Position numbers and translations under genes: made by a program
Origin: Halohasta litorea
GTDB taxonomy: Archaea > Halobacteriota > Halobacteria > Halobacteriales > Haloferacaceae
DNA length: 64,000 bases
Assembly: GCF_024494645.1 (NCBI RefSeq)
Contig: NZ_JANHDJ010000005.1
Location: 186,001-250,000 of the forward strand
Direction: 5' to 3'
Shown here: piece by piece, positions 37,356-43,923 of the stretch
Layout: each line of letters begins with the position of its first letter
How positions within the stretch are numbered: the first letter of the stretch is position 1
Notes under the pieces: model-generated
What the model was told of the DNA's origin: nothing
The model's database searches: none
The model's input: only the letters and a program-made list of their open reading frames with translations

Positions 37356-39569
37356 ATGTCGTATGCACCATCACTTTCGGGGACGGTACATCGCCTCCCG
37401 TTTGCTGGCGGCTCGCTTGCCGCACGGATCGCTCCGATCTATCGCGCCGCCCTAGAGACTGTTGGCGGCGATCCGCGGGATATCCTGGTTCTCAAACGCC
37501 TCCCCAACGAGGTGCCGGAGTTCACCGCCGAGCTGCGGGACGTCGTCGGCTTAGAGTCCCGGCCGAACGTCAAATCGGTCGCGCGGCACGCCTCGACGCT
37601 GCTCGAAGAGGCCGCCCCACAGCTCACCCGCCTGACGTACGAACAGCGCATCGAGTTCCTCGCGGCGGTCCTACAGGGCCGCAACTGGTCGGAGTACTAC
37701 GACCGGGCCCAAGAACACGATTCGTTCGGCAGCGACGTGGGCCAGCTGCTGCTCGATGCAACCTGGCAGGGTGGCTTCGACACCGAATCGATGGGTGACT
37801 CACGGTACGACGACCTTCTCCGAGAACTGGCCGAGGTGAACCGCGCGTTTCACGACAAGCTCGCCGAGCGGGATCTCGTCGAACAGGCATCGATGGTCCC
37901 GCGTGCGGTTGAGGCTCTCGAAGACCAAACACTCCGAACGGAGATCGAACGCGAGTTCGATCTCGTCATCGCCGTCGAGTTCGAGGAGTATTCAGCAGTC
38001 GAACGCGCCTATATCGGCTCGCTGACCGCTAACGCCGAGCTGGTCTGTGTGGCCGAACAGGAGGCAAGCATCGAACGCACTGCCCGCGAAGCGGGTGGCC
38101 TCGACCGCTTTACTGACGGCCTCGAAACCGTCGATCACACTGACGACGCATCGGCCGAGACACCAGCTACCGACTCTAGGACCTCCGAAACACGGGCTGG
38201 CACACCGTATGCGGAGTTCCTGGCAACCGGCTCGGTTTCGACGGCCGCAGCGACGCCAGCCCGGATCATCGCCGCCGAGACGCTCGACCGACAGGTCCAG
38301 GAGGTCGCCAACGAGATCGAGTTCCTCCGCCACGAACACGACTGGGCCTACGACGATTGTGCCGTGTTGCTCCGGTCGGTGGGCGATCCGATGCCGCGGG
38401 TCCGGCGGCTCCTCCAGCAGTCGGGCGTCCCGACCGCCTCGGCAGGGGTCAACGGGCTCGAACAGGATCTTGCCGTCCGGGAGATCCACGCCCTCGCCCA
38501 ATATTATGCCGACGGTGACGACCAGGCCCTCGGGCTGATCGAGGCGCGGGTCCCTGATCTCGATACGAGAGTAATCGAAGACTGCGTCGATCCGACATCG
38601 ATTGCGACCACGCTCAAACAGTGGATCGTCACAACTGATTTAAAAGGGCGGATCGCCCGCGAGAGCGACGATATCGACGCCCGCGAGCAGTTCCGGAACC
38701 TCTCGCGGCTGTTGTCTATTGCCGAGTTCGTCGACACCCAGGACTTCCTCTCGAACGACTGGTTCGACTTCATCACGATGTTGGAGCGGGCGATCACCTA
38801 CGATGCACCGTACGCCCACACGGCTGAGGTGACCGTCGCCGAGGGAGGGGTGACTGTCGGCGACGTCTCGCTCCTGAAAAACGACTCGCGGAAAGCGGTG
38901 TTCCTCATCAACGTGGTCGATTCGGTGTATCCCGGCGAGGAACGCCTCACCCGCCTGTTCCCGACCGCGTGGCTCAAACAGATGAGCGGCTATCCGGACG
39001 TCACGCAGCCGACCGCCGCCGACGTGACCGAAACGTATGCAACAGCCAGCAAGCCCATCGGCGACCCCTTCGAGGCCTACCACAACCACCGCGCCCGCCG
39101 CCAGCTCGCGGTCGGCGCTCGGGCGGCCGACTCCCGGCTCTACTTCTGTCGCTACCGTACGACGCGGGCGGGAGTTGGGAAACCACACCACCAGTCGCGG
39201 TATCTCTCGGCGATCCAGGACCACCCCGAGTTGCCCACCAAGACAATCGAGGGCGCAGGCAAGGACCGGGATATCTACACCCTCGGCAGCGCCTCGACCG
39301 AGATCCTCGCCCAACCCTGGGCGCAGCTCGAATCGATCCAGGCCATCGCCAGCCAGGGCGGCAGCATCGATATCCAGGAGGCCGAAGCCAACTTCGCCGA
39401 AATCCAGGAGTTGATCGAGACCAACGAGACGGTCAGCGATCGGTTCGTCCAGGCGATCGATACCCAGTTCGACATGGCTCGCGGAGCCATCGCCCCGACC
39501 GGGCCAGAGCGTCGTGGGAGAAGCGATCCAGGAGCCACCGACGGGAGTGAGGGGGAGAAATCGGAATGA
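37356..39569 (+). CDS. AddB/RecC-like inactive helicase subunit
   Basis: 737 residues. Organised like an SF1 (UvrD/AddB) helicase without ATP-binding capacity: no GxGKT loop occurs in the N-terminal strand-helix (LPFAGGSLAARIAPIYRAAL), and the Walker B/motif III region reads FDLVIAVEFEEYSAVERAYI (about 201-220) rather than DExQD. The later motifs are clearly SF1-like: DDCAVLLRSVGDPMPRVRRL, KAVFLINVVDSVYPGEERL. The stop overlaps the next ATG as ATGA. It probably acts as a scaffold or DNA-recognition subunit, as AddB/RecC do, with the nuclease part encoded separately downstream. Confidence 0.72.
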   Translation: MSYAPSLSGTVHRLPFAGGSLAARIAPIYRAALETVGGDPRDILVLKRLPNEVPEFTAELRDVVGLESRPNVKSVARHASTLLEEAAPQLTRLTYEQRIEFLAAVLQGRNWSEYYDRAQEHDSFGSDVGQLLLDATWQGGFDTESMGDSRYDDLLRELAEVNRAFHDKLAERDLVEQASMVPRAVEALEDQTLRTEIEREFDLVIAVEFEEYSAVERAYIGSLTANAELVCVAEQEASIERTAREAGGLDRFTDGLETVDHTDDASAETPATDSRTSETRAGTPYAEFLATGSVSTAAATPARIIAAETLDRQVQEVANEIEFLRHEHDWAYDDCAVLLRSVGDPMPRVRRLLQQSGVPTASAGVNGLEQDLAVREIHALAQYYADGDDQALGLIEARVPDLDTRVIEDCVDPTSIATTLKQWIVTTDLKGRIARESDDIDAREQFRNLSRLLSIAEFVDTQDFLSNDWFDFITMLERAITYDAPYAHTAEVTVAEGGVTVGDVSLLKNDSRKAVFLINVVDSVYPGEERLTRLFPTAWLKQMSGYPDVTQPTAADVTETYATASKPIGDPFEAYHNHRARRQLAVGARAADSRLYFCRYRTTRAGVGKPHHQSRYLSAIQDHPELPTKTIEGAGKDRDIYTLGSASTEILAQPWAQLESIQAIASQGGSIDIQEAEANFAEIQELIETNETVSDRFVQAIDTQFDMARGAIAPTGPERRGRSDPGATDGSEGEKSE

Positions 39570-40486
39570 GCGATCCCGTCATCACCGCCGACGAGCTGGC
39601 GAGCTACGTTGTCTGTCCCACACAGTACGAGTTCGAACACGTGCGGCCGATCTCGCCGCGAACCGATCACTCGGATGTGACCTTCGACCGCCGCCGGGAG
39701 CTGCTGGCCGACGGTCTGCTGGCCGGGCTCACCGCCGATGTCGGTTCGCCTGCGGCCCGGGCCCGCATCGCTACCGAGCGGATCGTCGGCCAGTGGCCCA
39801 CAACGGTCGACTCGTATGTAAACGACGAGCAACAGCAGTTCGACAGCGAGCTCCTGGAGGCCGCGATTTCGAACTACTTCGAGCGGTTCGGCGCGGAGCA
39901 TGCCGAGGGACTCGTCGAGACCAATCCGGTTCTCGGCAGCAGTTTCGACGGGATCAGATACGAAACCGAGGTCGATGCCCTCGTCGAAACCGAGAGCGGA
40001 CACCGGGCGATCCGGTTCCTGCCGAATCTCTACGGGGTCCATCCGGCCTGGAAGGACGAGGGGCTCGTCGAGGCGTATCTCTCTCGATCCGAGTTCTATC
40101 CGCGGCAGATCGGCCACCTCCTCCGGGCGTGGACCGCACTGCGTGGCCTGCTGTCGGCCCACGGGATGGACGCGGACGTGGAGTTCACCTACGTCTCGCT
40201 GTTCGACGACGTACGGATCAGCTACGGGGCGGGAAGCGACCCGACCGCCTCGGTGACGATGCGACACTTCCAGGAGCTCTTCGAGTCCGAACGCGGCGAG
40301 ATTCGGACACTGCTCCGAGACATGGGGCCGAAGATCATCGACGGCGAGTACGCGATTCCGGACGCGGACCGTTCGCTGATCGCCGACAACTGCTGTGAAT
40401 TCTGTCCCTACCAGGACGCGTGCCCGGCGTACATCCGGTCGGATGTTGCGTTTGGGGATCGAGCGGTCCAGGAGGACGGTAACTGA
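39566..40486 (+). CDS. Cas4/AddB-like iron-sulfur nuclease-fold protein
   Basis: 306 residues matching the C-terminal nuclease module of AddB. Cys17 (YVVCPTQYEFEH) and the C-terminal C277-x2-C280-x5-C286 (CCEFCPYQDAC) give the four-cysteine iron-sulfur staple of Cas4/AddB/Dna2. The PD-(D/E)XK core keeps Asp137 (ETEVDALVE), but where (D/E)xK should follow, the sequence reads HRAIRFLP, so catalysis is doubtful. It overlaps the upstream gene by 4 nt and the downstream helicase gene by 1 nt (TGATG at 40484-40488). Confidence 0.75.
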   Translation: MSDPVITADELASYVVCPTQYEFEHVRPISPRTDHSDVTFDRRRELLADGLLAGLTADVGSPAARARIATERIVGQWPTTVDSYVNDEQQQFDSELLEAAISNYFERFGAEHAEGLVETNPVLGSSFDGIRYETEVDALVETESGHRAIRFLPNLYGVHPAWKDEGLVEAYLSRSEFYPRQIGHLLRAWTALRGLLSAHGMDADVEFTYVSLFDDVRISYGAGSDPTASVTMRHFQELFESERGEIRTLLRDMGPKIIDGEYAIPDADRSLIADNCCEFCPYQDACPAYIRSDVAFGDRAVQEDGN

Positions 40487-43400
40487 TGGACGACCACGAA
40501 CCAATGGACGACACACCACTGCAGCCACAGGGGAACCAGCCAGCCGTCCTCGCGGCGACCGGCGACGAGATCAAAATCGAGGCCGTCGCGGGCTCGGGGA
40601 AGACCACGACGATGGTCTGGCGAATCCGCGACGAAATCCACACACGCGAGACACCGCCCAACCGGATACTCGTACTGACGTTCGCAAAAGAGGCGACTCA
40701 TAACGTTCAAGAAAAACTCAGAGAGGAACTCGGTGCGAGTGATTCGTTCGATGTTGACGTGTACAACTACCACTCGTTTTGTTATCAACTGCTCCAGGAG
40801 TACGCGTATCATAGCGGACTCTCACCGGACTTCGAACTGATCACGGAAGACCAACGACCGCAGTTAATCGAATCGGTGTACACTAGTGTTGATTTCGAGT
40901 TCGCACCCCCCAGCTCACCAGCCGCCAGCGGCCCCGATCAAGCAAGCGTCGGCGAGCTCACCGACTTCATTGGGTCGATGCGCCGGGAGGCCATCGACCC
41001 GGCGGCGATCCGCGAGTATCTCCCGGACGACGAAACGCTGACAGAGCTGATCGACCTCCAGCAGCGTCTGGAGGGGGCCGCCCACGATCTGATCAACGTC
41101 GATGCCAACGACATCATGTGGGACGCCGAAACGATAGCCGACAACTGCGAGCAGCTCGCCCGCGTCTACCGGTTTAAGGCCACGGGGTACGACCAGGACA
41201 CCGATCTGAGCCGGTCGGTCGGAGCCCATCTCGACGCGATGACCGAGTGTGCGGACTCGGTTGCGGGCTATCTTCGGACTGAGACGAACCTCTCCTGGAA
41301 GGAGTACCGACTCCCCGAGATTCTCTTCGAAGACACCCGGGGGCCCTTCGAGGGGATCAAACAGACGCCGATGGGTCGGTTTTCGGAATACGTCACCATG
41401 CTCCGGCGGGTGCGGGCCTATATCTCGGCCTACGAGGCCTACACCGAGGAGTTGGACGACCGCGGCGCGCTGGACTACGACGAACTCATTCACAAGGCCG
41501 TCGAACTCATGAACGATTCCGAGGTCCGCGAGGACATCCTCTCGCAGTGGGATGTGGTGTTCTGCGATGAGTTCCAGGACACGGATTCCTCCCAACTCAA
41601 CCTGGTAGACGAGCTCCGGAGCGAAATGGAGATCATGGTAATTGGGGATAGTGACCAAGCGATCTACGAGTGGCGGGGACAGGACCCGGACAATATGTCG
41701 AACCTTCCGGACTCCTTCGAGGAGATCACCCTCCCGGACAACTTCCGCTCCCGGCAGGCAATCCTGGACATAACGAACAACCTCGGCCGGGACACCCAGC
41801 AGATCCACTCGAAGCGGTCGGCCGACCCGCCGAGCGTATTCAAAATCAACAGCGAGGGAGCCGAGACCGAACAGCAGGTTTCGACGACCATCTCCCAGCT
41901 GCTGGCCGACCGTATTGCGGAGTTGGAGGGCCACAGGCTGTCGGACATCGCAGTGTTAGTCCGAAAGAACCGCCACGCCAAGCAGATCGCCGATCAGCTA
42001 GATCAGGAATCGATTCCGTACACGCTCTCGGCGGGCTCCGACGAGGCGGTCAGCCACGGGTTTCAAACCGTATTGTCGTATCTTCGTATCCTGGTCGAGC
42101 CCGGCGACGACGTGAGCTGGCAGCGCGTGTTGCTGTTGCTCTACCGGGTTCCCGAGGCCGATATCGATCGGCTGCTGGCGGCTGGCGAGACGGTTCCCGA
42201 GGGGTTCGAGGCAGTCTCGCCGTCGGCTCTCGACCGTCCGGAGCGGCTCCAGGAGGCACTATCGGAGTACGAGACCCTTCAAAAGATCTCGGCGACCCAT
42301 TCCGTCTCGGAGCTCTACTCCCACATGAAACGTGAGACGAAACTGGAGTGGTTCCTCCGGGATGCCGACCGCGATCGGCTGCAGTCGATCGAACAGCTGA
42401 TCTCGTCGTTCAGCGATAGCCCGGTCCAGCTGCGGCTCACCCCCAAGTTCCTCTCGTATCTCGAACGACAGGCGGATCTGTTGACCGCCAGCGAAGAAAC
42501 TGCGACCAGTCAGGGCACCAAATCCGAGGGTGCAATCGACATCATGACTGTCCACCAGGTCAAGGGGCTGGATTTCGACACCGTGTTGCTCCCGTATCTA
42601 GCCGAAGACGAATTCGCTACCCTCTCGAACTACCAGACACATATCTACAGCTACGATATGCTGGTCGACGGCATTGAGGGAACGCTGGACGATCCGCTCC
42701 GGAGTGACATCAGCGAGGCCCAGATCGCCGAGGAGTGGCGCATTCTCCACGTCGCACTGACCCGAGCCAAAAACCAGCTGTTCCTGTTCGGCACCGATCT
42801 CCCCGAGGGGATCGGCGACGTTCCCCTCGTCGACCAACAGTTGCCGGGGAGCGAAAGCGACACACCGATCGACTGGTCGGCGTCGGGCCCGCGACTGCCG
42901 ATCTGGAGCGCCCTGACCGACAGCTACGATGCCATCGCCGAAACCGCACCCAACGAGGTCCGTGATATCACCGAGCCGATCACCCGCGGCGTCGGCGAGG
43001 ACCCCGGCACGATCACCTACTACCAGCAGCCGCTCTCGACGGCCGACGCCATCGAGCAGGTGTTGGAGTTCGCCGATGGGATGGTCGAGCGGACGCTCGA
43101 TACCAACACGGATACTGTCGATGGCAGGCGGTACGCAGACGTCCCCCTCGGCGTCGACCAGGAGATCCAACTGGCACGCCAGCACAGCCACTCGGCCCTG
43201 GAGGCCGTCAGGGACTGTGGCCGCCGTCACGTGCTTGACTACGTCGTGGACGCCTTCCCCGACCCCGTTTCGGAGCGTGACGGCCAGCGGGGAGTGACCC
43301 AGGCCGACATCGGGACGCTGTTCCACGACGTCGCCGAGCTGGCCTACTGGCGCGGCTACACTACCGTCGAGGAGTGGATAACCGCCTGCCGGTGGATCGG

Positions 43401-43923
43401 CCAGCGGTACGACGGCAGCGACTGTGTCGAGGCAGCCATCGACTGTATCGAGAGCTACTTCGAGACGCCGGTCCCCGAGTGGACGGCCGTCGGCGCGGAG
43501 GTCCCGATCGAACTCGACGAGATCGACGGTCTCACCGGCACGGTCACCGGCTACGTCGATGCGGTCTGTGAGTATCCCGACGGCGGGCTGGCGGTGATCG
43601 ACTACAAAACCTCCCAGTCGAAAAAGACGCTCGCCGAGAGCTACCAGCTCCTGTTGTACGTCCGGGGTTGTGCCGATCGATTCGAGGAGGAGATTACGCA
43701 CGCGGGATACGTGTACGTCGGCGATCCAGGACCCGCCGTCCAGCTGTTCGAAGTCGAGGAGATCGAACGGCAGTGGGACGACCTCCACGCGGATCTCCTG
43801 GCGGCCGACGCCTCGACGTTCGACGACGTCGAGGCCGGGCCCCACTGTGAGTTCTGTGAGCACCGATCGCTCGGCTGTGCGGAGCCACCGTTCGAGTACA
43901 CCGACGACCTCCGGCTCGACTGA
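40486..43923 (+). CDS. AddA/UvrD-like helicase with C-terminal nuclease
   Basis: 1145 residues. SF1A helicase with Walker A AVAGSGKTTT (33-42), Walker B CDEFQDTD (D361-E362-x-Q364-D365), GDSDQAIYEWRGQDP, TVHQVKGLDFDTV and ALTRAKNQLFLFG. The C-terminal PD-(D/E)XK nuclease has VIDYKTSQ (D1039, K1041) and a following QLLLYVRG. Cys911 plus C1121-x2-C1124-x6-C1131 form an additional iron-sulfur-type staple that classical AddA lacks. With the two upstream genes it would make a helicase-nuclease for end resection or foreign DNA degradation. Confidence 0.85.
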   Translation: MDDHEPMDDTPLQPQGNQPAVLAATGDEIKIEAVAGSGKTTTMVWRIRDEIHTRETPPNRILVLTFAKEATHNVQEKLREELGASDSFDVDVYNYHSFCYQLLQEYAYHSGLSPDFELITEDQRPQLIESVYTSVDFEFAPPSSPAASGPDQASVGELTDFIGSMRREAIDPAAIREYLPDDETLTELIDLQQRLEGAAHDLINVDANDIMWDAETIADNCEQLARVYRFKATGYDQDTDLSRSVGAHLDAMTECADSVAGYLRTETNLSWKEYRLPEILFEDTRGPFEGIKQTPMGRFSEYVTMLRRVRAYISAYEAYTEELDDRGALDYDELIHKAVELMNDSEVREDILSQWDVVFCDEFQDTDSSQLNLVDELRSEMEIMVIGDSDQAIYEWRGQDPDNMSNLPDSFEEITLPDNFRSRQAILDITNNLGRDTQQIHSKRSADPPSVFKINSEGAETEQQVSTTISQLLADRIAELEGHRLSDIAVLVRKNRHAKQIADQLDQESIPYTLSAGSDEAVSHGFQTVLSYLRILVEPGDDVSWQRVLLLLYRVPEADIDRLLAAGETVPEGFEAVSPSALDRPERLQEALSEYETLQKISATHSVSELYSHMKRETKLEWFLRDADRDRLQSIEQLISSFSDSPVQLRLTPKFLSYLERQADLLTASEETATSQGTKSEGAIDIMTVHQVKGLDFDTVLLPYLAEDEFATLSNYQTHIYSYDMLVDGIEGTLDDPLRSDISEAQIAEEWRILHVALTRAKNQLFLFGTDLPEGIGDVPLVDQQLPGSESDTPIDWSASGPRLPIWSALTDSYDAIAETAPNEVRDITEPITRGVGEDPGTITYYQQPLSTADAIEQVLEFADGMVERTLDTNTDTVDGRRYADVPLGVDQEIQLARQHSHSALEAVRDCGRRHVLDYVVDAFPDPVSERDGQRGVTQADIGTLFHDVAELAYWRGYTTVEEWITACRWIGQRYDGSDCVEAAIDCIESYFETPVPEWTAVGAEVPIELDEIDGLTGTVTGYVDAVCEYPDGGLAVIDYKTSQSKKTLAESYQLLLYVRGCADRFEEEITHAGYVYVGDPGPAVQLFEVEEIERQWDDLHADLLAADASTFDDVEAGPHCEFCEHRSLGCAEPPFEYTDDLRLD

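Follow-up and report, generated by a model that had tools for sequence, protein, structure and literature searches.

The window analysed here is a stretch of 64,000 nucleotides of the haloarchaeon Halohasta litorea (contig NZ_JANHDJ010000005.1, positions 186,001 to 250,000; coordinates below are those of the window). It contains an operon of three overlapping genes, which we designate P1, P2, and P3, and which probably encodes a three-subunit, ATP-dependent helicase-nuclease for DNA ends of the AddAB/RecBC kind, with the catalytic nuclease motif of P2 lost in the lineage of the window. All three open reading frames (ORFs) lie on the forward strand:

37356..39569, + strand: P1 (737 aa), AddB/AdnA-type helicase-like protein with a predicted dead ATPase, equivalent to the N-terminal two thirds of AddB
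39566..40486, + strand: P2 (306 aa), separate AddB-type iron-sulfur (Fe-S) nuclease-fold protein with the catalytic D-x-K lost, equivalent to the C-terminal third of AddB
40486..43923, + strand: P3 (1145 aa), UvrD/PcrA-type SF1A helicase with a C-terminal Cas4-like Fe-S nuclease

P1 and P2 are joined by a 4-nt overlap (ATGA), and P2 and P3 by a 1-nt overlap (TGATG); coordinates, lengths, and overlaps are exactly as in the original prediction, a note made from the letters of this stretch. For comparison, 78 haloarchaeal loci were fetched in addition to the window. All conservation and motif counts given here use the 76 intact loci including the window, three loci being left out (one with only a P1 fragment, one reaching the end of its stretch, and one with a shortened P3). 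Same order, same strand, and short overlaps, mostly of 1, 4, or 8 nt, were found in 76/76 loci, so the three-gene arrangement is not due to chance, and the co-occurrence of the three genes in relatives, proposed as a check on the original prediction, was borne out. The loci fall into clade C (n = 28) and clades A and B (together n = 48; clade B, n = 42, is used for the genomic contexts), with the window in clade A.

The first gene corresponds to the helicase-like part of AddB. In structure comparisons, residues 8-709 of the P1 AlphaFold model (AF2; predicted local distance difference test, pLDDT, 88.5) align to residues 2-768 of Bacillus subtilis AddB (Z 22-23, 621-629 residues). A single-sequence search with P1 gave no Pfam match and nothing useful in the PDB, whereas the family profile found AddB (E = 3.9e-9) and, by hhalign, matches the fused AddB of methanogens (98.2%, positions 11-563). 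The DExQD motif is absent from P1 in all 76 members and the Walker A pattern matches in only 2/76, which, together with the alignment to AddB, agrees with the proposed inactive SF1 helicase-like protein; P1 thus has the inactive SF1 helicase fold of the AddB-like subunit in AddAB.

The second gene continues where the first one ends. The P2 model (AF2, pLDDT 90.1) matches AddB 785-1138 over its residues 1-296, with Z up to 14.8, and the P2 profile matches the fused methanogen AddB at positions 713-1028 (hhalign, 94.3%). Against Pfam, the sole match of P2 was to the Fe-S end of PDDEXK_1 and stayed below the cut-off, and the P2 profile retrieved only chance matches from the PDB by sequence. P1 and P2 jointly cover AddB 2-1138, leaving out no more than about 17 residues between them. 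This tiling, together with the profile matches to the fused methanogen protein, supports the interpretation of P1 and P2 as an AddB that would have been cut at the helicase/nuclease junction, with the break between AddB residues 768 and 785, as the original prediction had proposed. The AddB domains, which form one chain in AddAB, are encoded by two genes in 76/76 loci, and no P1-P2 fusion occurs among the intact haloarchaeal loci.

Both models tile AdnA as well as AddB, and the operon could alternatively be of the AdnAB type, with P1 and P2 together as AdnA and P3 as AdnB. The mycobacterial AdnAB (PDB 6ppj, 9np6) resembles the operon in its UvrD-like motors with C-terminal RecB-like nucleases, P3 being UvrD-like; the best structural match of P2 is AdnA (791-1039, Z 16.1 vs. 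14.8 for AddB), and P1 matches AdnA 22-780 at Z 21-22. The structural scores for AddB and AdnA are thus about even overall. We consider this assignment unlikely: the Z score of P1 is slightly higher for AddB, and its profile finds AdnA only at E = 6e-4. It should be noted that the tree used to place P3 contained no AdnB sequence. Unlike the operon, AdnA is a single chain; the AdnA-like part is split here, and its nuclease motif is lost in the window.

The positions in P2 that bear on its nuclease function are as follows:

39614..39616, + strand: P2 Cys17, first predicted Fe-S ligand, invariant in 76/76
39974..39976, + strand: P2 Asp137, retained metal-ligand position, invariant in 76/76
40013..40021, + strand: P2 residues 150-152, R-F-L where the catalytic D-Y-K is expected (motif census)
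40394..40423, + strand: P2 Cys277, Cys280, and Cys286, the other predicted Fe-S ligands, invariant in 76/76

These four cysteines, together with H112 and D137, are invariant in all 76 loci, and as in AddAB they bracket the nuclease domain (C ... CxxC-x5-C). The catalytic D-x-K, in contrast, was found only in clade C, where it reads D-Y-K in 28/28 members, whereas 48/48 members of clades A (including the window) and B lack it; nine annotated loci from plasmids, all of the active clade and some identical to loci already counted, have it intact as well. P2 is therefore the predicted Fe-S nuclease-fold protein as far as its cysteines are concerned, but without the catalytic motif in the window. 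The second active nuclease of AddAB is lacking in P2 of the window and of all 48 loci of clades A and B, and the complete two-nuclease AddAB machine originally envisaged for this stretch gives way to a RecBC-like one with a single nuclease.

Phylogenetic analysis of each of the three proteins separated clade C from clades A and B (support 99/99 for P1 and 100/100 for P2; for P3, 100/100 for C and 100/99 for A and B). One change suffices to explain the distribution of the D-x-K motif on these trees, indicating that it was, parsimoniously, lost once. The change is read as a loss and not a gain because the intact motif is the norm in the superfamily, clade C and clades A and B being sisters in the P3 tree with outgroups. 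In close pairs, the median ratio of nonsynonymous to synonymous substitution rates (dN/dS) of P2 is 0.12 in clade C and about 0.22 (0.22 in the median) in clades A and B, indicating that the dead P2 is retained under purifying selection.

The motor and the remaining nuclease of the window's machine would both be provided by P3, which is its sole predicted motor and nuclease. Its catalytic and cysteine positions are these:

40591..40605, + strand: P3 Walker A, GSGKT; G36, G38, K39, and T40 invariant in 76/76, position 37 mostly T
41566..41580, + strand: P3 Walker B, DEFQD; D361, E362, Q364, and D365 invariant in 76/76, F363 in 97%
43216..43218, + strand: P3 Cys911, first predicted Fe-S ligand of the P3 nuclease, 76/76
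43558..43608, + strand: P3 nuclease motif, D1025 ... D1039-Y-K1041, 76/76
43846..43878, + strand: P3 Cys1121, Cys1124, and Cys1131, predicted Fe-S ligands, 76/76

P3 matches the Pfam families UvrD-helicase (1.8e-54), UvrD_C (3.5e-35), and PDDEXK_1 (6.3e-18), and it retains all SF1 and nuclease residues tested and the four Fe-S-type cysteines in 76/76 loci. An AddA-like helicase with a nuclease tail had been predicted; both domains are indeed intact throughout, but the protein is not an AddA by the NCBIfam models, which rank pcrA (203 bits) over rep (187), recB (157), and addA (135). The scores lie below the equivalog cut-offs of addA_Gpos (135 vs. 707.65) and recB (157 vs. 696). A methanogen AddA used as a control (L130), likewise below the addA cut-off, ranks differently (addA 346, recB 238, pcrA 237 bits), and the identification of P3 as a true AddA was rejected. 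In the tree P3 does not group with AddA; it falls close to UvrD/Rep and to methanogen solo UvrD-nuclease proteins, a placement that is weakly supported (66/55). The archaeal AddA proteins tested lack the Fe-S cysteine pattern of P3, which is shared by 2/3 methanogen solo forms and by one Deinococcus AddA. Judged by its sequence, P3 thus resembles UvrD/PcrA, joined to a Cas4-like Fe-S nuclease, more than it resembles AddA.

In its architecture, a UvrD-type SF1 helicase with a PDDEXK_1/Cas4-like nuclease and four cysteines, P3 fits the UvrD-Cas4 fusions (pfam12705) that Hudaiberdiev et al. reported from mesophilic archaea and from the vicinity of type III restriction-modification genes (PMC5704561); P3 of clade C is likewise found near genes of this type. 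The described fusions differ in being reported without coupled P1/P2 partners (PMC5704561), and the grouping of P3 with the methanogen solo forms is weakly supported. Such solo P3-like proteins, both in methanogens (L124-L128) and in the literature (PMC5704561), would fit a P3 that works as a stand-alone helicase-nuclease, with P1 and P2 as separate accessories forming no AddB-like unit. This we regard as very unlikely, as P1 and P2 tile AddB almost without interruption, occur next to each other and coupled to P3 in every case, and show the same clade split. Weak methanogen matches to P1 were rejected as unsplit orthologues, being in part solo UvrD-Cas4-like proteins and in part AddB.

The genomic neighborhoods differ between the clades. 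Clade B occurs at recurrent housekeeping-gene sites, next to a CBS-domain gene (30/42), prolyl-tRNA synthetase (16), UvrA (13), and folate genes (FolC/P, 13); clade C has as neighbors PLD (14/28), Argonaute (7), methyltransferase (6), and Mrr (5) genes, and the contexts of the two clades are disjoint for the families sampled. None of the sampled defence-neighbor families was found beside a clade A or B locus, and the neighbors of the operon in the window are housekeeping genes (glutamyl/glutaminyl-tRNA synthetase, CDC48-type ATPase). Plasmid loci of clade C adjoin type III restriction-modification-like genes, BREX-5 genes, or a Piwi-domain gene with a PLD gene, and one further plasmid context holds an exonuclease/AAA pair and SIR2. 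Seven clade C loci (L080, L086, L087, L089, L090, L094, L096) have ago and agaP directly upstream of P1 on the same strand with a 5-nt gap, an arrangement that amounts to an apparent five-gene operon ago-agaP-P1-P2-P3; the PLD genes upstream of P1 were identified by us as agaP from the ago-PLD arrangement. Argonaute-AgaP (APAP) is a haloarchaeal immune system established by experiment, and its description mentions an unnamed adjacent helicase gene (PMC11442185); the lineage of the window, unlike these loci, has no Argonaute or PLD neighbor. Among the loci from few-contig genomes, 19/20 of clade B and 8/14 of clade C are on chromosome-sized contigs. Clade C, with the active P2, sits in defence islands, and the clades with the dead P2 dominate in the Natrialbaceae. 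A convergent gene of 375 aa abuts P3 in six clade C loci (e.g., L078, 12378-13505) and has no Pfam or PADLOC match.

These contexts bear on the possibility that the operon serves anti-virus defence in all lineages, including that of the window, with P3 shredding invading DNA, P1 and P2 recognizing it, and the chromosomal copies being fixed defence genes. We consider this rather unlikely, even though clade C lies in defence islands and seven of its loci directly behind genes of a system whose immune function is experimental (PMC11442185), UvrD-Cas4 fusions have been predicted to take part in defence (PMC5704561), and the operon is patchy within the window's own family. The lack of any sampled defence neighbor in clades A and B, the recurrent housekeeping sites of clade B, the frequency of P1 in the Natrialbaceae, and the housekeeping neighbors in the window argue against it.

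Homologues of P1 were found in 74/194 sampled halobacterial genomes, representing 38/65 genera. In the family of clade B, taken as Natrialbaceae, 109/125 genomes (87%) encode a P1 of any clade. When 295 genomes of the phylum were searched by profile, no orthologue was recovered beyond the haloarchaea, the remaining hits being weak SF1 or AddB matches, and no P1 was found in phage records. Within its own family, the operon of the window is not only patchy but missing from two well-assembled genomes of the same genus; its nearest relatives (59-64% identity) are encoded in the family of clade B, and it was likely acquired from a Natrialbaceae-like source. The regulator flanking the operon in the window has no clear orthologue in the same-genus genomes compared.

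Returning to the three-subunit machine that we favor, P3 would act as a single 3'-5' motor bearing the single active nuclease at its C-terminus, and P1 (the dead helicase) and P2 (a nuclease-like domain stapled by a putative Fe-S cluster) would dock as the equivalent of AddB or RecC. The latter two may grip the duplex end, separate its strands, and guide or scan the one on which P3 does not travel. Starting at a double-strand end, the complex would unwind the DNA and degrade it, leaving single strands for the recombinase RadA or for destruction. In the clade of the defence islands P2 is presumably active too, giving two cutters as in AddAB; we take this to be the ancestral state. In the lineage of the window the P2 cutter would have lost its activity, in the simplest case a single time, and P2 would have been retained in a structural or strand-guiding role, like RecC. 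The likeliest task of the window's version would be the resection or clean-up of chromosomal DNA ends, and clade C may act with restriction-modification, BREX, or Argonaute systems in the destruction of foreign DNA.

Several points weigh against this interpretation. The physical association of P1, P2, and P3 is presumed from gene order, coupling, and homology. The core of P1 is matched more closely by UvrD (Z 27.7) than by AddB (23); the UvrD alignments, however, end near P1 residue 638, and only AddB and AdnA extend to about 709. P3 scores neither as AddA nor as RecB by the curated models. The unrooted P2 tree leaves the proposed direction of the motif change to the superfamily norm, and the invariant H112 and D137 may give the "dead" P2 a residual or altered metal role. 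Part of the clade C loci are chromosomal, and the match between clade and replicon is not strict. Other AddAB-like and NurA genes in the same genome may make the role redundant.

Among the known systems, AddAB of B. subtilis (PDB 3u44, 4ceh) shares with the operon a dead-helicase AddB carrying an Fe-S nuclease and an active helicase-nuclease partner; the operon differs in its two-gene AddB, in the lost P2 motif of the window, and in a P3 outside the AddA models. The operon of the window resembles RecB-RecC of RecBCD in combining an active helicase-nuclease with a partner that is, by its motifs, inactive in both domains. The helicase and nuclease domains of RecC are both inactive, its nuclease-like domain forming an aperture for one strand (PMC1185551). 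Unlike RecC, which lacks even the metal-ligating residues, P2 keeps the H, the D, and the Fe-S cysteines, and the RecC-like part is split. No RecD gene is present in the three-gene operon or beside it, the neighbors on either side being unrelated.

AddAB-type machines already exist in archaea. The original prediction had regarded a complete machine of this type as notable there, end resection in archaea being usually credited to HerA-NurA and Mre11-Rad50; this view was dropped, since unsplit AddB-AddA pairs are found in methanogens of the same phylum (L130-L138) and on haloarchaeal plasmids (L151, plasmid PHS3 of Halobacterium salinarum), and the genome of the window itself holds a second AddB/AddA-like pair and a NurA match. 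They have the same composition and order as the operon, with AddB first. They differ in an AddB of one chain (1018-1062 aa), whose nuclease motif is intact in the majority of the examined cases, and in a methanogen AddA that scores as AddA. What appears to be new here is the split AddB, the loss of the second nuclease, and the three-gene operon; no description of these was found in the literature searched, the coverage of which was incomplete, so a prior description is possible.

Further genes of this kind were observed alongside. The genome of the window encodes a second overlapping AddB-like/AddA-like pair (L144, 6882-12370; G000:C23, about 606.9-612.4 kb), comprising P0007 (863 aa, with a nuclease motif) and P0008 (966 aa); P0007 has homologues in 69/145 haloarchaeal genomes and no NCBIfam or PADLOC name. 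A third, very divergent AddA-like protein of the same genome is P0009 (1159 aa; L145, 2430-5909; G000:C1). The unsplit plasmid pairs, L151 (1931-8615) on PHS3 and L152 (1772-8591), are annotated just as nuclease and helicase, and a BrxA gene lies beside one of them. Among bacterial records, the plasmid AddA of Deinococcus deserti (L154, 3968-7252) is annotated as three genes and is possibly broken, and NZ_CP030101.1 (L155), a 2.9-Mb Listeria record that PLSDB lists as a plasmid, is clearly a chromosome.

End resection in haloarchaea has been ascribed to Mre11-Rad50, and Haloferax volcanii is described in a review as lacking HerA-NurA (PMC7776575). A NurA-family match was found in the genome of the window (L167, G000:C28, 4692-5642) and in the H. 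volcanii control, the latter being at odds with the reported absence of NurA (PMC7776575). A search for the Rad50 zinc hook was uninformative, as the H. volcanii control was negative as well. The near-core, coupled helicase-nuclease of the Natrialbaceae is a concrete candidate for end resection.

RecBCD has been proposed to have passed through an AddAB-like stage before losing its second nuclease (PMC1185551). The haloarchaeal clades show both stages at once, with the second nuclease live in one and dead in the others, and this pair of clades offers a natural experiment for that proposal. The tie of the live version to the Argonaute-PLD operon makes it a plausible partner for that immune system (PMC11442185). 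We put forward, tentatively and as somewhat less than an even chance, that a RecBC-like resection machine with a single nuclease arose in haloarchaea independently of bacteria: an immune-linked form with two nucleases and a chromosomal form would derive from one ancestor, the second nuclease having died once, and the two-chain AddB/RecC-like part would have been kept, perhaps as a strand guide or as a sequence sensor controlling resection.

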